Shown here: positions 56,190-63,457 of the stretch, one piece after another
How the letters are laid out: every line of letters starts with the position of its first letter
Numbering within the stretch: position 1 is the first letter of the stretch
NCBI GenBank assembly: GCA_019084245.1
Contig: JAHRFE010000027.1
Location: 186,001 to 250,000, forward strand
DNA length: 64,000 bases
Reading direction: 5' to 3'
Source: Hoeflea sp.
GTDB taxonomy: Bacteria > Pseudomonadota > Alphaproteobacteria > Rhizobiales > Rhizobiaceae
Program-made: the position numbers and the translations under genes
The notes under the pieces: model-generated
Databases searched by the model: none
Seen by the model: the letters and a program-made list of their open reading frames with translations, nothing else
What the model was told of the DNA's origin: nothing

Positions 56190-57083
56190 TCACTCGTTGC
56201 CTTCGCCCTTGAGCGTTGCATTGGCCATTTGCAGGGCATGCCGGACATCGAGCGCCAGAATGTCGGCGCCGGCGGCATGCAGTTCCTCCTGACGGCTGCC
56301 GAGGCACGGTCCGCCGATCAGCACCGACATGGATGGATCCGGGCAGGTCGTGCGGATTTTGCCGATCACGGAGCTGATATCCTCGATCGTTGATCCCACC
56401 GCGATCGAGACGCCTATCACCTGATATCTGCCTTCGCGCGCCATTCCATAGGCCCGGTTGCCGGCCTGCAGGCTTGGCCCGCCGTCAACCAGCCAGCCTT
56501 CTTCATGAAACACCGATGCGATCACGCTCAGGCCCAGCGTATGGTCGTTGCTGGGCATCCGCATCAAGAGAATCCGCGGCCGTTCCTCATCGCAAAACGA
56601 AGGGCCATCAGTCTCGGAAAGACTGGTCAGCAGCAATTGCAGCCTTGCGGACGCCGCGGTGATGCTGGAAAAATTCTGCTGATCCTCGCACCACATGCGT
56701 CCAAGTTCCTCGGCGACGGGAATGATCAGCGTCTCGCAGATCACCAACAGCGGCACCCTTTCGCTGCGTAGCCGGTCAAGCGCTCCGCGGAAATGCTTCG
56801 GGTCCTTCTCAAGAAGAGCGCTGAGCAATTGGCGGAAATGGATTATCCCGTTGGTCGAGCGACGTTCGTCGGGCCCGGTTCCGTCGCTTCCGTTCTCGTA
56901 ATGAAAATGGTGGCGGATTGCCTGCTCCAGCTTGCCGCGGTCCTCGGTCTCCATCTGCGGGCAGGGGGCCGATCCCGCGGGGAGTAGCGGAGAGCGTGCG
57001 ACGGACCCCCTCGTCGTATTGCTCATGTACGGTCTACCCGGGGCGAGCCGTTCATAGCCGCCTCTTTCTTCGTTACCGGACAT
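56190..57083 (-). CDS. aerR: Cobalamin-binding photosynthesis regulator, AerR/PpaA type
   Basis: 297-residue protein with a helical middle domain (EELGRMWCEDQQNFSSITAA, about 125-144) and a C-terminal B12-binding domain. MPSNDHTLGLSVIAS fits the (D/N)xHxxG lower-ligand motif with His181, and VLIGGPCLG is the GG loop. AerR/PpaA proteins act as antirepressors of PpsR/CrtJ, the aerobic repressor of photosynthesis genes. The ATG at 57083 has GGGGGATAGG upstream; a GTG at 57098 is an alternative. It lies downstream of dxs on the same strand, and TGT-N12-ACA boxes precede dxs. The long basic N-terminus (1-50) is not typical, so its function should be taken as probable. Confidence 0.8.
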   Translation of the reverse strand: MSGNEERGGYERLAPGRPYMSNTTRGSVARSPLLPAGSAPCPQMETEDRGKLEQAIRHHFHYENGSDGTGPDERRSTNGIIHFRQLLSALLEKDPKHFRGALDRLRSERVPLLVICETLIIPVAEELGRMWCEDQQNFSSITAASARLQLLLTSLSETDGPSFCDEERPRILLMRMPSNDHTLGLSVIASVFHEEGWLVDGGPSLQAGNRAYGMAREGRYQVIGVSIAVGSTIEDISSVIGKIRTTCPDPSMSVLIGGPCLGSRQEELHAAGADILALDVRHALQMANATLKGEGNE

Positions 57084-57259
57084 TGGCCTATCCCCCACAT
57101 CATGCGGATCTGATCCACGATGAAAAGGTTATGACGGTTTTTATAATGAAACGAGGGCCTGTACGGCGATACTGCATCGCGGTTGTTGCCAAAACAGAAA
57201 AGGAGATTCAAGACGGCATATTAAGACCAGTCTAATTATACGGATACATTTAAACAACA

Positions 57260-59212
57260 CTATATGACGGAGGCAAGTCGCAAAAGCCGCTCATTGTTTC
57301 GGGCAGCTTTCTTTTGGAGAGTGTTCAGCGCCGCCTCCGCCAGATGCGGCGCAGTCAGGCCCGAGCGGTCATACATGACGGCCGGGCTCGCATGTTGCTC
57401 GAACCGGTCCGGCAAGGTCAGCGTCCGCACCGCCAGCGAGCCGTCGAGTTGTCCGCTTTCGGCCAGATGCCTGAGCACACTTGCGCCAAAGCCGCCGCTT
57501 GCCCCTTCCTCGACGGTAATCAGCGCGTCATGGCTGCGGGCAAGGTCTTCAATCAGCCGGGTGTCCAGCGGCTTGGCAAAGCGGGCGTCGGCTACGGTCG
57601 TGGACAATCCGCGCGCTGCGAGCAGATCGGCGGCAGCGAGGCATTCGCCCAGTCGCGTGCCGAATGACAGGAAGGCAATGTCACGGCCCTGGCGGACCAC
57701 GCGGCCCTTGCCGATCTCAAGCGGGACGCCCCGCTCGGGCAGCGCCACGCCGGTTCCTTCCCCGCGCGGATACCGGAATGCGATCGGCCCGGCATCGTGA
57801 CCTGCGGCGGTTGCGACCATGTGCACCAGTTCCGCCTCGTCGGCCGCCGCCATCACGGTGAAACCCGGCAGATTGGACAGGAAGGCAATGTCGAAGGCGC
57901 CCGCATGGGTCGGCCCGTCGGCGCCGACAAGGCCGGCGCGATCGATGGCGAAGCGCACCGGCAGGCCCTGCAGCGCCACATCGTGGACGATCTGGTCATA
58001 GGCGCGCTGCAGGAAGGTGGAATAGATCGCACAGAACGGCTTCATCCCCGCCGCGGCCAGGCCGGCGGCGAAAGTGACCCCATGCTGCTCGGCGATGCCC
58101 ACGTCGAACATCCGCGCCGGATGGGCCTTGGCGAAGAGATCGAGCCCGGTGCCAGACGCCATCGCCGCGGTGATGGCGACGATGCTTGTGTCGCGCGCCG
58201 CTTCATCGGTCAGCGCCTGGGCGAAGACCTTGGTGAAGGCCGGCGCGCCGGGCTTGGACTTGGACAGGGTCCCGGTCTCGGCGTCGAAGCTGCCGACGCC
58301 ATGATACTTGTCGGCGCTGTTTTCCGCCGGCGCATAGCCCGCGCCCTTGCGCGTGATAGCGTGGATCAGCACCGGCCCGTCGGCCGCATCCTTCAGGGTC
58401 CGCAGGATGGTCAGGAGTTGCGGCAGGTCATGTCCGTCGACCGGCCCGACATAGGAAAATCCCATATGCTCGAAGAGGCTCGAATTGCCGGTGAGGGCGC
58501 CAACGGCATGGCGCGCCCGCGCGGCGCCGGTCCGGAAAGGCTCGGGCAGCAGCGCGGCCGCCTTTTTCATCGCGACATCCATGCGGATCGCCGGCGCCCG
58601 TGCGCAGAGCGCTGTGAGATGCCTGGAAAAGGCCCCGACCGAGGGTGAAATCGACATTTCATTGTCATTGAGAATGACGAACATCCGCTGGCCCAGCGCG
58701 CCGGCATTGTTCATCGCCTCATAGGCCATGCCTGCCGACATCGCGCCGTCGCCGATCACCGCCACCACATCGCCGTCGCCATACCCCAGCGACCGCGCGG
58801 CAGCGAATCCGAGGCCAGCCGAAATCGAGGTCGAGGAATGTGCGGCGCCAAAGGGATCATAGGGGCTTTCGGAGCGTTTGGTGAATCCTGACAAGCCGCC
58901 GTCCTGGCGCAGGCTCGCCATGGCCTCGCGCCGGCCGGTGAGAATCTTGTGGGCATAGGCCTGGTGGCCTACATCCCAGATCAGCTTGTCGCGGGGCGTG
59001 TCGAATACGGCATGGATGGCGACGGTGAGTTCAATCACGCCGAGGGTGGAGCCGAGATGTCCGCCGGTGGCGGCGACCTTGGCGATGGTGTCTCGCCGGA
59101 GTTCTTCCGCCAGCGTGACAAGATCGGCATCACCGAGGCGGCGCAACGCCTCCGGATTGTCTATCCTGTCAAGAATCGGCGTCGCGTTCTCCGGTTTCGA
59201 AACAATCCCCAT
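57260..59212 (-). CDS. dxs: 1-deoxy-D-xylulose-5-phosphate synthase
   Basis: 650-residue thiamine-diphosphate enzyme making the first intermediate of the MEP isoprenoid pathway from pyruvate and glyceraldehyde 3-phosphate, feeding carotenoid and bacteriochlorophyll side-chain synthesis. The ThDP motif is [18 protein letters not shown] near residue 155; other hallmarks are [13 protein letters not shown] near 80, [15 protein letters not shown] near 377 and [18 protein letters not shown] precedes the ATG. It is divergent from bchI and shares a region of PpsR-type boxes with it, so it is probably a photosynthesis-cluster dxs copy; whether a second dxs exists elsewhere is unknown. Confidence 0.95.
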
Positions 59213-59310
59213 TGTCTGCCTCCATGTTCGCCCGGCCTTGGCCCGGTGAGTGCGGGCTTCTGGTTCTCGAACCGCACCTCCACGACCATATTCGGTGTAA
59301 TGCAGAAAAA

Positions 59311-59328
59311 TGTAAACAATAATTTACA
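59311..59328. promoter_or_regulatory. PpsR/CrtJ box 1 (dxs side)
   Basis: Exact TGT-N12-ACA (TGT 59311-59313, ACA 59326-59328) in the divergent dxs-bchI region. An 8-bp gap separates it from box 2, the spacing known for cooperative CrtJ binding. Confidence 0.7.
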
Positions 59329-59336
59329 CAAAAATA

Positions 59337-59354
59337 TGTCAATCAATATAGACA
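59337..59354. promoter_or_regulatory. PpsR/CrtJ box 2 (dxs side)
   Basis: Exact TGT-N12-ACA (TGT 59337-59339, ACA 59352-59354), 8 bp from box 1. The surrounding DNA (59300-59370) is strongly A+T-rich. Confidence 0.7.
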
Positions 59355-59500
59355 ATTTGAAAAGACTAAGGCGGTTTTAGCCTCGGAATCCTCCATCAAG
59401 ACGGCTGCGTGCAGGATTGCGGCCTTTGAGCTCCACCCGGTGCAGACGGATTATCGCGATTGCAAATGATCCCAGAGTGTATATTTTGGTTGACGTGACA

Positions 59501-59518
59501 TGTACAAAAATGTGGACA
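59501..59518. promoter_or_regulatory. PpsR/CrtJ box 3 (bchI side)
   Basis: Exact TGT-N12-ACA (TGT 59501-59503, ACA 59516-59518), about 90 bases before bchI. A degenerate TGT-N12-ACG at 59478-59495 lies just upstream and could form a pair with it. The remainder of 59213-59608 holds no gene. Confidence 0.6.
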
Positions 59519-59608
59519 CTTTGGCTCGATCAGCTGGGTTCCACAGCGCGTGACGCCCGGCGCTCAGACAAGCCAGGCTCATGCGCTCAGAATGAGAGGT
59601 AACCGCCA

Positions 59609-60640
59609 ATGGCTAAGCCCTATCCCTTCAGCGCCATTGTTGGCCAGGATGAAATGAAGGAAGCCCTGCTGATGGCGGCGGTCGAGCCGGCGCTTGGCGG
59701 GGTTCTGGTGTTTGGCGACCGCGGCACCGGAAAATCGACCGCAGTGCGCGCGCTGGCGGAACTGGTGCCCGAACTCGCCGGCACCCGCGGCTGCCGCTAC
59801 AATTGCGATCCCGCCCAGCCCGCCGAACCCTGTCCGGTCTGCGCCACCGCGCCCAAGTCGGAGCGAATCAAGCGCCGGGCGCCGATGGTCGATCTGCCGC
59901 TGGGCGCCACCGAAGACAGGGTCTGCGGCGCGCTGGATATCGAAAAGGCGCTTGTCTCCGGCGAGCGCGCCTTTGAGCCCGGGCTTCTCGCCAAGGCTCA
60001 TCGCGGCTTTCTCTATGTCGACGAGGTCAATCTGCTCGAGGATCATCTCGTCGACCTGCTGCTTGATGTGGCGGCTTCCGGCGTCAATGTTGTCGAGCGC
60101 GAGGGGCTGAGCGTACGCCACCCCGCCCGGTTCGTCCTGGTCGGCAGCGGCAACCCGGAGGAGGGCGAGTTGCGGCCGCAATTGCTCGACCGCTTCGGAC
60201 TGTCGGTCGACGTCGCCTCGCCGCGCGATATCGCCTCGCGGATCGAGGTGCTCAAGCGCCGCGACGCCTATGAGCAGGACGCCGATGCCTTCCATGCAAA
60301 ATGGTCCAGGGAAGAACAGCGGCTTGCGGCGCGGATTGTCGCCGGTCGCAAGGCCGTGGGCTCGGTGGTGCTGTCCGAGCGGTTGATGATCATGATGGCG
60401 CATCTGTGCATGCAATTGGGTGTTGACGGCCTGCGCGGCGAACTCACGCTGATGCGCGCCGCCCGCGCCAAGGCGGCGCTTGACCGCCGCAAGGAAGCGA
60501 CCGTCGAGGATGTCCTGGCCGTGGCGCCGATGGCGCTGCGCCACAGGCTGCGCCGCGATCCGCTCGATGAGGCAGGCTCGAAGACCCGCGTCGACCGCGC
60601 CATCAGCGAAGTTGCGGGAGCGCCCGTGGGACATGCCTGA
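59609..60640 (+). CDS. bchI: Magnesium chelatase ATPase subunit I
   Basis: 343-residue AAA+ motor of magnesium chelatase, the first committed step of bacteriochlorophyll synthesis (Mg insertion into protoporphyrin IX). Opening FSAIVGQDEMKEALLMAAV, Walker A FGDRGTGKSTAVRAL near residue 33, a Cys-rich insertion (RGCRYNCDP, PCPVCATAP), Walker B FLYVDEVNLLEDHLVDLL and sensor region VGSGNPEEGELRPQLLDRFG. It overlaps bchD by 8 bases. The Mg-chelatase porphyrin-binding BchH subunit is not in this window. Confidence 0.95.
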   Translation: MAKPYPFSAIVGQDEMKEALLMAAVEPALGGVLVFGDRGTGKSTAVRALAELVPELAGTRGCRYNCDPAQPAEPCPVCATAPKSERIKRRAPMVDLPLGATEDRVCGALDIEKALVSGERAFEPGLLAKAHRGFLYVDEVNLLEDHLVDLLLDVAASGVNVVEREGLSVRHPARFVLVGSGNPEEGELRPQLLDRFGLSVDVASPRDIASRIEVLKRRDAYEQDADAFHAKWSREEQRLAARIVAGRKAVGSVVLSERLMIMMAHLCMQLGVDGLRGELTLMRAARAKAALDRRKEATVEDVLAVAPMALRHRLRRDPLDEAGSKTRVDRAISEVAGAPVGHA

Positions 60641-62528
60641 TCCTGGCCCTGATCTGGACACTGATCTTGACCCCGGCGCTGCGGTCCATCCGCGGTGGGG
60701 CGATGCGCTGCTGGCGGCGCAGGTCCTGGTGGCCGGCGCCGGGCTGATCGGCGGGGTGCGGCTGCGCGCGGGCGCGGGCCCGGTGCGCGACCGCTGGCTC
60801 GAGATGATGCGCCTGATGCTGGCGGCAAGGCCCGGCCCGGTCCTGCCGTGGATCCGCATTCCCTCGTCCTCGGCCGCAGGCCGGCTGACCGGCGGCATCG
60901 ACATCGCCGCAACGCTCACCTCGGGACGCCCGGTGCATGAAAAGGGACTGTTGGCCCGTGCCGATAGCGGATTCATCGTTCTCGGCATGGCCGAGCGGCT
61001 CGCTGGCGCAAGTGCGGCCATCATCGGCCGCGCGCTTGATGACGGCGAATCCATCGGGTCTTCCGGGACCAGGCAGGCGTCTCGGTTTTCGATCGTGGCG
61101 CTCGACGAGTCCACCGGCGAGGACGAGGACCTGCCTTCGGCACTCGCCGACCGGTTGACGCTCGATCTGCGGCTTGACGGCCTGTCGATCCGTGACGCCG
61201 TCTGTGATCCCGACTTGGCCGCTGCCCTTGCTCGGGACCTGCCTGGTGCGGAAACCTCCGCGAAAGCCATGGGCGGCATTCATATGGGCGACGGTCTGCT
61301 TGAGGCGTCTGCCGCCATAAGCATGGCTCTGCCCGGCAGCCCGATCCGCCGTGCGCTCGATCTGGTCCGCGTCGCCCGGATCCTCGCCATGCTTGAACGC
61401 AAGGATAGCGTTGACGGCGAATACCTCGCCACCGCCGTCCGGCTTTGCCTCGGCATCACCTTGAATACGTCCGAGCAACCCACCCCGGAGGATCAGCCTG
61501 CCGAAGCCGATCAGGCCCAGAATCAGGAGCAGGATCAGGCCGAGGATACGGACGACCAGCCGCCGCCTCCGCCCGAACCGCCACGCGACGATGCGGACTC
61601 CGACGGCGAAACCACCGAAGCTGAGATTCCGGAAGAGGACATGGTGGTGGCCGCCGCCGCTGCATCGCGCGCGGTGCTGGCCGAGCTCGACCGCCCGGAT
61701 CGATCGATGGCGTCCAAAATGGCCCGGACTGGCAAGTCCGGCGGTTTCAAGTCGGGCAGCCGCCGAGGCCGGCCTGCAGGCATTGTCTCGCGACCGCCCT
61801 ACACCGAAGCCCGGCCCGATGTGGTGTCCACATTGCGCGCGGCGATCCCGTGGCAGCGGTTGCGCAACCCGGATTTTGCGCTGCGCACCGACGGCTCGGT
61901 GCCGCAACTGCGTATCCTTCCATCGGACTTCCGCTATATCCGGTTCCGCCACCGCACCGAATCCACCGCCATCTTCGCCGTCGACGCTTCGGGATCCACC
62001 GCCATGGAGCGGCTGGCCGAGGCCAAGGGTGCGATTGAACTGCTGCTGGGCGACTGCTATGTGCGGCGCGACCAGGTGGCGCTGATCACCTTCCGCGGCC
62101 TGACGGCGGAAACCCTGCTTGAGCCCACCCGCTCGCTGGTCCGGGCCAAGCGCTCGCTCACCGGCATCCCCGGCGGCGGGCCGACGCCGCTTGCCGGCGC
62201 CATAAGACGCTCGCTCGAAATCGCCGGCATGGTGCAGCGGCGCGGCCGGTCGCCGCTGATCGTCTACCTGACCGATGGCAGCGGCAACATCGCGCTTGAT
62301 GGAAAGCCGGATCGCGTCCGGGCGCGCGAGGATGAGAAGATGCTGGCCCGCCAGGGCGCAGCCCTCGGCTACCGCTCGATCCTGATCGACATCTCCCGCA
62401 GGCCGCGCGTGACGACGCGGGAACTGGCGCGCTCCATGCAGGCGCAATATTGCCCGCTGCCGATCGTTTCGGCGAGTGCGGTCAATGCCATTGTCAGCGC
62501 CGAACTGCAGAAAGGCGGCGGGCAATGA
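60633..62528 (+). CDS. bchD: Magnesium chelatase subunit D
   Basis: 631-residue platform subunit that works with BchI and BchH. It has an N-terminal degenerate AAA-like domain (1-275), an acidic and Pro/Gln-rich linker (about 278-336) and a C-terminal von Willebrand factor A domain with MIDAS FAVDASGSTAMERLAEAKGA (Asp451), CYVRRDQVALITFRG and YLTDGSGNIALDG. The ATG at 60633 is used; the open frame upstream is the shadow of bchI. Its last four bases ATGA overlap bchO. The bchI-bchD-bchO order is the classical photosynthesis-cluster arrangement. Confidence 0.94.
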   Translation: MPDPGPDLDTDLDPGAAVHPRWGDALLAAQVLVAGAGLIGGVRLRAGAGPVRDRWLEMMRLMLAARPGPVLPWIRIPSSSAAGRLTGGIDIAATLTSGRPVHEKGLLARADSGFIVLGMAERLAGASAAIIGRALDDGESIGSSGTRQASRFSIVALDESTGEDEDLPSALADRLTLDLRLDGLSIRDAVCDPDLAAALARDLPGAETSAKAMGGIHMGDGLLEASAAISMALPGSPIRRALDLVRVARILAMLERKDSVDGEYLATAVRLCLGITLNTSEQPTPEDQPAEADQAQNQEQDQAEDTDDQPPPPPEPPRDDADSDGETTEAEIPEEDMVVAAAAASRAVLAELDRPDRSMASKMARTGKSGGFKSGSRRGRPAGIVSRPPYTEARPDVVSTLRAAIPWQRLRNPDFALRTDGSVPQLRILPSDFRYIRFRHRTESTAIFAVDASGSTAMERLAEAKGAIELLLGDCYVRRDQVALITFRGLTAETLLEPTRSLVRAKRSLTGIPGGGPTPLAGAIRRSLEIAGMVQRRGRSPLIVYLTDGSGNIALDGKPDRVRAREDEKMLARQGAALGYRSILIDISRRPRVTTRELARSMQAQYCPLPIVSASAVNAIVSAELQKGGGQ

Positions 62529-63457
62529 AACCGGCGCATCGTCCGTCCCGCAGCTTGCCCGCGCTTGAGGCGGAAGGCAGCCACTGGCCGCTGCGTGAAG
62601 CGAGCCGGATGGTGCGGGTCGGGCGGATCGACTGGCATGTGCAGGATCTGGGCGCTCAGGACGCCCCGGTGGCGATCCTGGTTCACGGAACCGGGGCTGC
62701 CACGCACTCATTTCGCGGCCTGGCGCCGCTGCTGGCGCAGGACCGCCGCGTCATCGCGATGGATCTGCCCGGACACGGCTTCACCCGCGGCGCCGAGGCG
62801 GAGGATCTGACCCTGCCGGGAATGGCGCAAGCGCTGGGCGGACTGGTCCAGGCGCTCGGGATCAACCCCGCCGTCGCGATCGGCCACTCGGCCGGGGTCG
62901 CGGTGCTGCTGCAATCGACATTGTCGGGCGGGATCAGGCCCGACTGCATCATCGGCTTCAATGCGGCGCTCGAGCCCATTCGCGGCAATGTGCTGCTCTC
63001 GCCTTTGGCCAAGCTGCTGTTTGCCAACCCGCTGACGGCGCGGCTGGTCTCGTTCCAGGCCAGGATCGTCAACATGGCCGATCAGTTGCTCAAGGCCACC
63101 GGCTCCCGGATCGATCAGACCGGGCGGGAGTGCTACGCCCTGCTGCTGCGCCAGCCGACCCATATCAATGGCGCTCTGGGGATGATGGCCAACTGGCGGC
63201 TGGAGCCGCTGATCGCGAAGCTCGGACAGCTGCACACCCCGGTCACGCTTATTGCGGCGGCCGATGACCCGATGGTTCCGGCGCGGGTCTCGCTCCAGGC
63301 GGCGCGCCTCATTCCAGGCTGCGCCGTCGAGATCGTCGATCATGGCGGCCATCTGATGCACGAGGCCGATCCGGCTCTGGCTGCCGAGCTGATCCGGCGG
63401 GCGGCCGCTGCGTATACCGGACTGTCCCCGGCAAAGCGGATCGGTGGCTTGAGATGA
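62525..63457 (+). CDS. bchO: Alpha/beta-hydrolase BchO, putative Mg-chelatase accessory protein
   Basis: 310-residue alpha/beta hydrolase that always accompanies bchID in phototrophic Proteobacteria; its reaction is not established. The oxyanion region LVHGTGAATHSFRG, nucleophile elbow IGHSAGVAVLL near residue 121, an acid in AAADDPMVP and His in VDHGGHLMHEADP are visible. Start ATG 62525 overlaps the bchD stop (ATGA). Hydrophobic helices around residues 150-190 suggest contact with membrane or pigment. Confidence 0.92.
   Translation: MKPAHRPSRSLPALEAEGSHWPLREASRMVRVGRIDWHVQDLGAQDAPVAILVHGTGAATHSFRGLAPLLAQDRRVIAMDLPGHGFTRGAEAEDLTLPGMAQALGGLVQALGINPAVAIGHSAGVAVLLQSTLSGGIRPDCIIGFNAALEPIRGNVLLSPLAKLLFANPLTARLVSFQARIVNMADQLLKATGSRIDQTGRECYALLLRQPTHINGALGMMANWRLEPLIAKLGQLHTPVTLIAAADDPMVPARVSLQAARLIPGCAVEIVDHGGHLMHEADPALAAELIRRAAAAYTGLSPAKRIGGLR

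Follow-up and report, generated by a model that had tools for sequence, protein, structure and literature searches.

Two predicted PpsR operator pairs between a photosynthesis-cluster dxs and bchI in Hoeflea sp., with a separate box-free housekeeping dxs

Introduction

In R. capsulatus, CrtJ is described as binding tandem boxes that are either 8 bp or 45–500 bp apart (PMC6199135). For R. sphaeroides, Table 2 of PMC4344238 gives a PpsR ChIP peak at crtIB/crtA-bchIDO and a 20-fold change in crtA-bchIDO expression, and bchI is already known as a PpsR/CrtJ target (PMC4344238, PMC6199135). The gene dxs is not named as a direct PpsR/CrtJ target in the literature surveyed, although the supplementary peak tables of the R. 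capsulatus CrtJ ChIP study (PMC5362033) could list it; R. sphaeroides DxsA appears as a target of PrrA in PMC4263372, and dxs is described as following pufC or pufX in Rhodobacteraceae (PMC6052148).

Here, we analysed a 64,000-nucleotide stretch of Hoeflea sp. DNA (the window; bases 186001–250000 of contig C27 in a genome of 4.82 Mb) in which dxs and bchI are transcribed divergently. Similar to bchC and crtA-bchIDO/crtIB of R. capsulatus as presented in PMC6199135 and PMC5362033, this locus combined paired TGT-N12-ACA boxes, a bchI operon as the predicted target and a gene for an AerR-type co-regulator. Unlike the arrangement given there, in which bchI follows crtA and is divergent from crtIB, bchI was the first gene of its group and faced dxs; and whereas aerobic repression is on record for R. 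capsulatus, control at the present locus was read from sequence. The likely targets matched the PpsR regulon of R. sphaeroides (crtA-bchIDO with crtIB, crtEF/crtCD, bchC, bchG and ppaA/bchF in Table 2 of PMC4344238), except that dxs of the photosynthesis gene cluster (PGC) is absent from that ChIP table. The aerobic phototroph D. shibae, according to PMC10890935, has mutation-proven TGT-N12-ACA boxes in the divergent promoter of bchF and ppaA and a B12-dependent PpaA, to which the window genome showed a likeness in its genes; control in D. shibae is ascribed to PpsR, LdaP and PpaA, and no BLUF domain protein was found in the window genome. In Rubrivivax gelatinosus, PpsR is described as using a pair of boxes separated by 8 or 9 bp, with the spacing affecting the redox response of binding (PMC4452267), compared to gaps of 8 bp in the window and 7 bp in two congeners for the pair next to dxs.

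Results and Discussion

The dxs-bchI intergenic region was 396 bp long. On one side lay a PGC-type dxs (57260..59212, minus strand; TIGR00204, 748 bits), with an AerR-like gene for a B12-binding protein downstream of it (56190..57098, minus strand). On the other side lay bchI (59609..60640, plus strand; TIGR02030, 504 bits), which encodes the Mg-chelatase ATPase subunit, followed by bchD (plus strand, 60480..62528 as an ORF from its first start codon; NF009943, 531 bits, below the cut-off of 571), bchO (plus strand, 62450..63457, also from the first start codon; TIGR03056, 286 bits) and crtI-family and crtB-like genes, which together would form a single bchIDO-crtIB operon. Reading the contig to base 323000, we found PGC genes comprising dxs, bchIDO, the crtI-family and crtB-like genes, a crtC-like gene, crtD, a crtE-like prenyltransferase gene, bchCXYZ, pufM, pufC, idi, a crtA-like gene, hemA, acsF, puhC, a lhaA/pucC-like gene, bchM, bchH, bchB, bchN, bchF, a BchL-like NifH-family gene, an AerR/PpaA-like gene, ppsR, bchG and bchP, in which list several names score below the curated cut-off of the best model, while crtF and small genes were named by place alone. 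The crtA-like gene (257 bits, cut-off 300) was situated between idi and hemA, and beside it was an IPP isomerase gene (L009:3231-3773, minus strand; TIGR02150, 106.1 bits, cut-off 105.8), which gives the cluster two isoprenoid-supply genes. A sensor histidine kinase gene was also present about 3 kb from dxs (window:53491-54357, minus strand), with PhyK and a blue-light-activated kinase as the best models, both far below their cut-offs.

A sequence-only reading of this DNA had proposed three exact TGT-N12-ACA boxes between dxs and bchI, and these were borne out. The first two form a pair next to dxs, namely a dxs-proximal box at 59311..59328 (TGTAAACAATAATTTACA) and a dxs-distal box at 59337..59354 (TGTCAATCAATATAGACA), and the third lies towards bchI at 59501..59518 (TGTACAAAAATGTGGACA). 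That reading missed a fourth, degenerate box (TGT-N12-ACG, one mismatch) at 59478..59495, which is 5 bp before the box at 59501, and the region is best described as two predicted operator pairs, 59311/59337 (gap of 8 bp) and 59478/59501 (gap of 5 bp). Another one-mismatch site at 59301 overlapped the box at 59311. In 20,000 dinucleotide shuffles of the 396-bp intergenic region (mean of 0.096 boxes per shuffle), no box occurred 18,145 times, one box 1,792 times, two boxes 63 times and three boxes never, and a pair at the exact 8-bp spacing arose once.

The boxes were also preserved between species. Those at 59311 and 59337 each had an exact counterpart in two congeners, and the degenerate site at 59478 was kept in both congeners that have the region (15 of 18 positions invariant in the three-species alignment). 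Overall, 41 of 54 columns in the exact boxes were invariant in that alignment compared to 100 of 331 elsewhere, and the well-conserved dxs-bchI boxes are very probably real PpsR operators. The 8-bp gap of the dxs pair, which the sequence-only reading had singled out, was found in the window but was not constant among relatives: it was 7 bp in both congeners and 6–8 bp in the seven dxs-side pairs found. Two boxes at a spacing suited to cooperative binding were present in the 8-bp dxs pair; for the bchI box at 59501, the near partner was degenerate and 5 bp away, a gap outside the CrtJ spacings described in PMC6199135, and the next exact box was 146 bp away. A simple scan of the region for −10 and −35 elements that the boxes might overlap found no sigma-70-like promoter.

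The bare TGT-N12-ACA motif occurred 11 times in the window compared to 5.5 expected (4 of 100 shuffles reached 11) and 566 times genome-wide compared to 548 for a reversed control. Since the motif was about as common in the genome as its reversed control, the evidence rests on position and context. A scoring matrix built from 57 distinct exact boxes found in other genera, and therefore biased to exact boxes, was run over 137 kb. Twelve of the 13 top sites fell in PGC intergenic regions, where they were grouped as six pairs, either close together or overlapping, in front of bchC, dxs, bchG, crtD/crtE, bchI and bchF/AerR-like, the gap being 8 bp at dxs, bchC and crtD/crtE and 5 bp, 1 bp and −2 bp (an overlap) in the other three; the site ranked 10 was inside a gene outside the PGC. 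With rank 2 for 59311 and rank 4 for 59337, the dxs pair outscored the bchI pair (rank 7 for 59501 and rank 12 for the degenerate site). The refined motif had 17 matches genome-wide and 16 for its reversed control, with 6 of the 17 inside the PGC; it was concentrated there rather than commoner, and because it was not enriched in the genome over the reversed control, regulon members beyond the PGC are left unnamed.

We consider it highly probable that the region holds two PpsR operator pairs, one serving the PGC dxs and one serving bchIDO-crtIB, as part of joint repression of the PGC by PpsR. The pair at 59311/59337 would serve the PGC-dedicated dxs and the pair at 59478/59501 the bchIDO-crtIB operon; the genome's own PpsR may sit on the pairs as neighbouring dimers and so lower transcription of both operons, jointly with crtCD/crtEF, bchC, bchF/AerR-like and bchG, which have similar upstream sites. 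Extra DXP for the bacteriochlorophyll tail and carotenoid would then be made only during pigment making, and the supply of building blocks is probably switched jointly with it, as judged from the seemingly strong PpsR sites at this dxs. The boxes with their statistics and conservation, the two dxs lineages and the PpsR and AerR-type genes are the observed part of this scheme; that PpsR binds and represses, where the promoters lie and what the signal is are inferred. The proposal of a single control region for both genes thus stood in part, with predicted PpsR operators at both genes but arranged as two pairs, one near each gene, rather than as a three-box array.

The absence of a PpsR gene had been named as grounds for rejecting this kind of control; a ppsR gene was found on the same contig (TIGR02040, 361 bits, above the curated cut-off), and its product also matched the PpsR structure 4hh2. 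The recognition helix was nearly identical across nine aligned proteins, all nine of which, including the PpsR of Roseobacter litoralis and Thiodictyon, shared Cys439 of the HTH; a cysteine at position 271, between PAS domains, was not conserved. The HTH cysteine is reported as redox-active in CrtJ (PMC9144470), and its loss in Rubrivivax is reported to have left aerobic repression intact (PMC4452267). Of 57 genomes searched, all 52 with BchI (51 above the cut-off) had a PpsR match at E 1e-30 or better, and none of the five non-phototroph congeners did. Eight relatives (G131, G267, G338, G166, G088, G321, G387 and G089) had two PpsR matches above the cut-off, in some with one copy within about 10 kb of bchI, and four more (G177, G235, G288 and G101) had a second match below it.

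The AerR-like identity of the gene downstream of dxs was upheld, with AerR 7te2 as the best PDB match (E 3e-10) and a PF02310 score of 31.1 bits (cut-off 32.1). The genome encodes two AerR-type proteins with 23% identity, namely this one, of 302 aa, and a second whose gene precedes ppsR, of 376 aa when read from the first start; both keep the aligned His and Trp/Phe. In AerR, the His is described as holding B12 and the Trp and Phe as capping it (PMC9144470), and alignment to 7te2 assigned His145, Trp94 and Phe101 of the protein encoded at 56190-57098 as the predicted B12 ligand and cap residues. These two proteins give some weight to the idea that PpsR with AerR activates as well as represses and that, under certain conditions, the main effect of the boxes is higher expression of dxs and bchI, as does the account of LAerR turning CrtJ into an activator in R. 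capsulatus (PMC6199135). We regard this as unlikely, although less so than the other alternatives weighed below, as published accounts make PpsR/CrtJ a repressor of photosynthesis operons in R. sphaeroides (PMC4344238), in D. shibae (PMC10890935) and, with oxygen, in R. capsulatus (PMC6199135).

Within the preferred reading of PpsR repression at both genes, the signal first suggested was oxygen. AcsF, the oxygen-dependent cyclase, was present (497 bits) and was the only cyclase found, and BchE had no match above the cut-off in the genome (best score of 23 bits, cut-off 481); bacteriochlorophyll synthesis should therefore need oxygen, which makes oxygen doubtful as an off-signal. PpsR repression in D. 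shibae is, moreover, reported to depend on light and not oxygen (PMC10890935). Aerobic repression was thus not supported, and a light signal, passed on by the B12 proteins of AerR type, or one of redox state is more likely than plain repression by oxygen. Light acting through B12 proteins would be the likelier of these, by analogy with D. shibae and R. capsulatus.

A second dxs was found on the same contig (C27:112068-113966 of the window genome, G000), was 62% identical to the PGC copy and was of the housekeeping type without boxes. Five sampled congeners that lack BchI each had one dxs and no PpsR. We compared 5' regions across 79 dxs genes; bchI loci supplied 19 of these, and 60 were obtained separately. 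Among PGC-type or PGC-located dxs, 24 of 28 had an exact box no more than 200 bp away, compared to 0 of 28 housekeeping dxs (Fisher p 9e-12, a guide only as it ignores the kinship of genomes), the latter being 23 from two-copy phototrophs and five from non-phototroph congeners; other dxs of single-copy phototrophs had such a box in 4 of 22 cases. With a limit of 300 bp, the counts were 24 of 28, 2 of 28 and 7 of 22, respectively, and the five extra sites were G+C-rich and 259–300 bp upstream. Four of the 28 PGC-type or PGC-located dxs had no exact box within 200 bp (L031, L038, L063 and L066), two of which had a one-mismatch site in 250 bp. Class assignments were made as follows: of the two groups of 28, the tree described below includes 20 PGC and 12 housekeeping dxs, and the rest were assigned because they adjoin bchI, lie near ppsR or are the other copy in their genome. 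L063 was PGC-type by the tree alone, and L041, L049 and L054 were PGC-located dxs of housekeeping descent. Because the tree places L069 (G262) with housekeeping dxs, it was not kept in the PGC group (24 of 29 if it is included), and the single dxs of G267 and of G365 were counted as PGC-type or PGC-located, outside the 22. The counts exclude the extra dxs matches of G242, which were fragmentary, as well as those of G292, and G387 gave no dxs match.

The claim that isoprenoid supply is placed under this control consequently needs narrowing. There are boxes at dxs, but only at the second, PGC-type copy; since the housekeeping dxs elsewhere on the contig is box-free, the cell's entire isoprenoid supply is not controlled in this way, and the housekeeping gene would sustain quinone and other essential isoprenoids. 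If this is true, quinones and pigments do not depend on one isoprenoid entry gene, and a second dxs is kept within the pigment regulon. Probable PpsR operators at dxs are a modest but useful extension of the known regulon, and the spare dxs, together with the apparent repeated recruitment of dxs, is more telling than the boxes first noted.

The repeated recruitment was suggested by a tree of 41 dxs proteins, for which reading frames were chosen by alignment. It separated 24 housekeeping proteins, as a clade (100/100), from 17 of PGC type, among them that of the window. Inside the housekeeping clade was a seven-member group (97/95) of the bchI-adjacent dxs of G208, G365 and G242 and the dxs of four species of genus g99, and six of the seven had an exact box. 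Five g99 genomes (99–100% complete) had one dxs and one PpsR each, and in the single-contig genome G099 the only dxs was 1.3 Mb from bchI and outside the PGC. The upstream regions of g99 dxs (L100-L104) had two islands in all five species. One is a box near −110, exact in four species and with a single mismatch in L102; the other, read by eye, is a degenerate TGA-N12-ACA site. We lean slightly towards PpsR control of the isoprenoid entry step having arisen on two dxs lineages, the old PGC-type paralogue and a housekeeping-type gene that is the only dxs in g99. As the only copy, the g99 gene is presumably essential; if the reading is true, its expression would be in the hands of a photosynthesis repressor, and species with a box on their only dxs offer a natural test of having no spare copy.

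At bchI, an exact box was present within 200 bp in 38 of 50 family loci, taken from 52 genomes with BchI (G356 and G089 were left out); 12 of 50 had no exact box at that distance, seven of which had a one-mismatch site. Nineteen of the 50 loci had a divergent dxs near bchI (in an upstream stretch of mostly 1.5–2 kb). A cytochrome c gene related to that of L015 was upstream of bchI in 15 of 50 loci and stood between dxs and bchI in 9 of 19, so that control of dxs and of bchI would be separate modules. Exact boxes were present near both dxs and bchI in five of these nine loci (L015, L017, L024, L035 and L040), near dxs only in two (L023 and L030) and at neither in two (L031 and L038).

These loci bear on the possibility that the boxes are PpsR sites but regulate bchI only, with the dxs-side pair looping to bchI in the way of distant CrtJ sites in R. 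capsulatus. The two pairs are about 120–150 bp apart, which is within the 45–500 bp on record for CrtJ sites (PMC6199135). We nevertheless find it improbable, given the boxes at both ends of five of the nine loci split by the cytochrome c gene, the box at four dxs that are on the PGC contig about 40 kb from bchI (L067, L068, L070 and L071), and the boxed only dxs of g99 outside the PGC. Least probable of all is that a different factor recognizing a similar palindrome binds the boxes, or that they reflect A+T-rich promoter sequence containing TTGACA: many boxes do end in TTGACA (a −35 consensus), G+C around the dxs pair (59281-59370) was 28% and an N14 spacing matched 12 of 50 bchI loci, but N10, N11, N13 and reversed half-sites gave 0–2 bchI loci compared to the 38 for N12, the N14 matches were mostly the same sites since most shared an arm with an exact box (8 of 14 at bchI and 8 of 10 at PGC dxs), housekeeping dxs lacked the motif within 200 bp, and the shuffles preserved composition.

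PpsR repression through one pair at each gene remains our preferred reading, and we also surveyed the layout more widely. A class-wide search found BchI at E 1e-100 or better in 27 of 385 genomes; besides the window's, 26 bchI loci were obtained, with a box within 200 bp in seven and, over the approximately 1.5 kb upstream of bchI, a dxs in none, so that this sample gave no case of the divergent dxs-bchI layout outside the family. Among the best 80 of at least 597 dxs loci in named genomes, six were PGC-linked by a neighbour test and one of these had boxes; PGC-linked Rhodobacterales loci had a box within 200 bp in 0 of 4 cases, the upstream sequence of L177, another of the six, was absent, and the 74 that were not PGC-linked had none. 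The PGC-linked dxs of L214, a Beijerinckiaceae MAG, carried two boxes 6 bp apart.

If operators of this kind function as predicted, the 8-bp and 7-bp gaps in sister species make the spacing effect described for Rubrivivax testable on natural promoters. In L036, L037 and L039 (genus g25), the spacer between dxs and bchI was only 127–129 bp and contained a single box midway, and a control region truly shared between the two genes is possible there.
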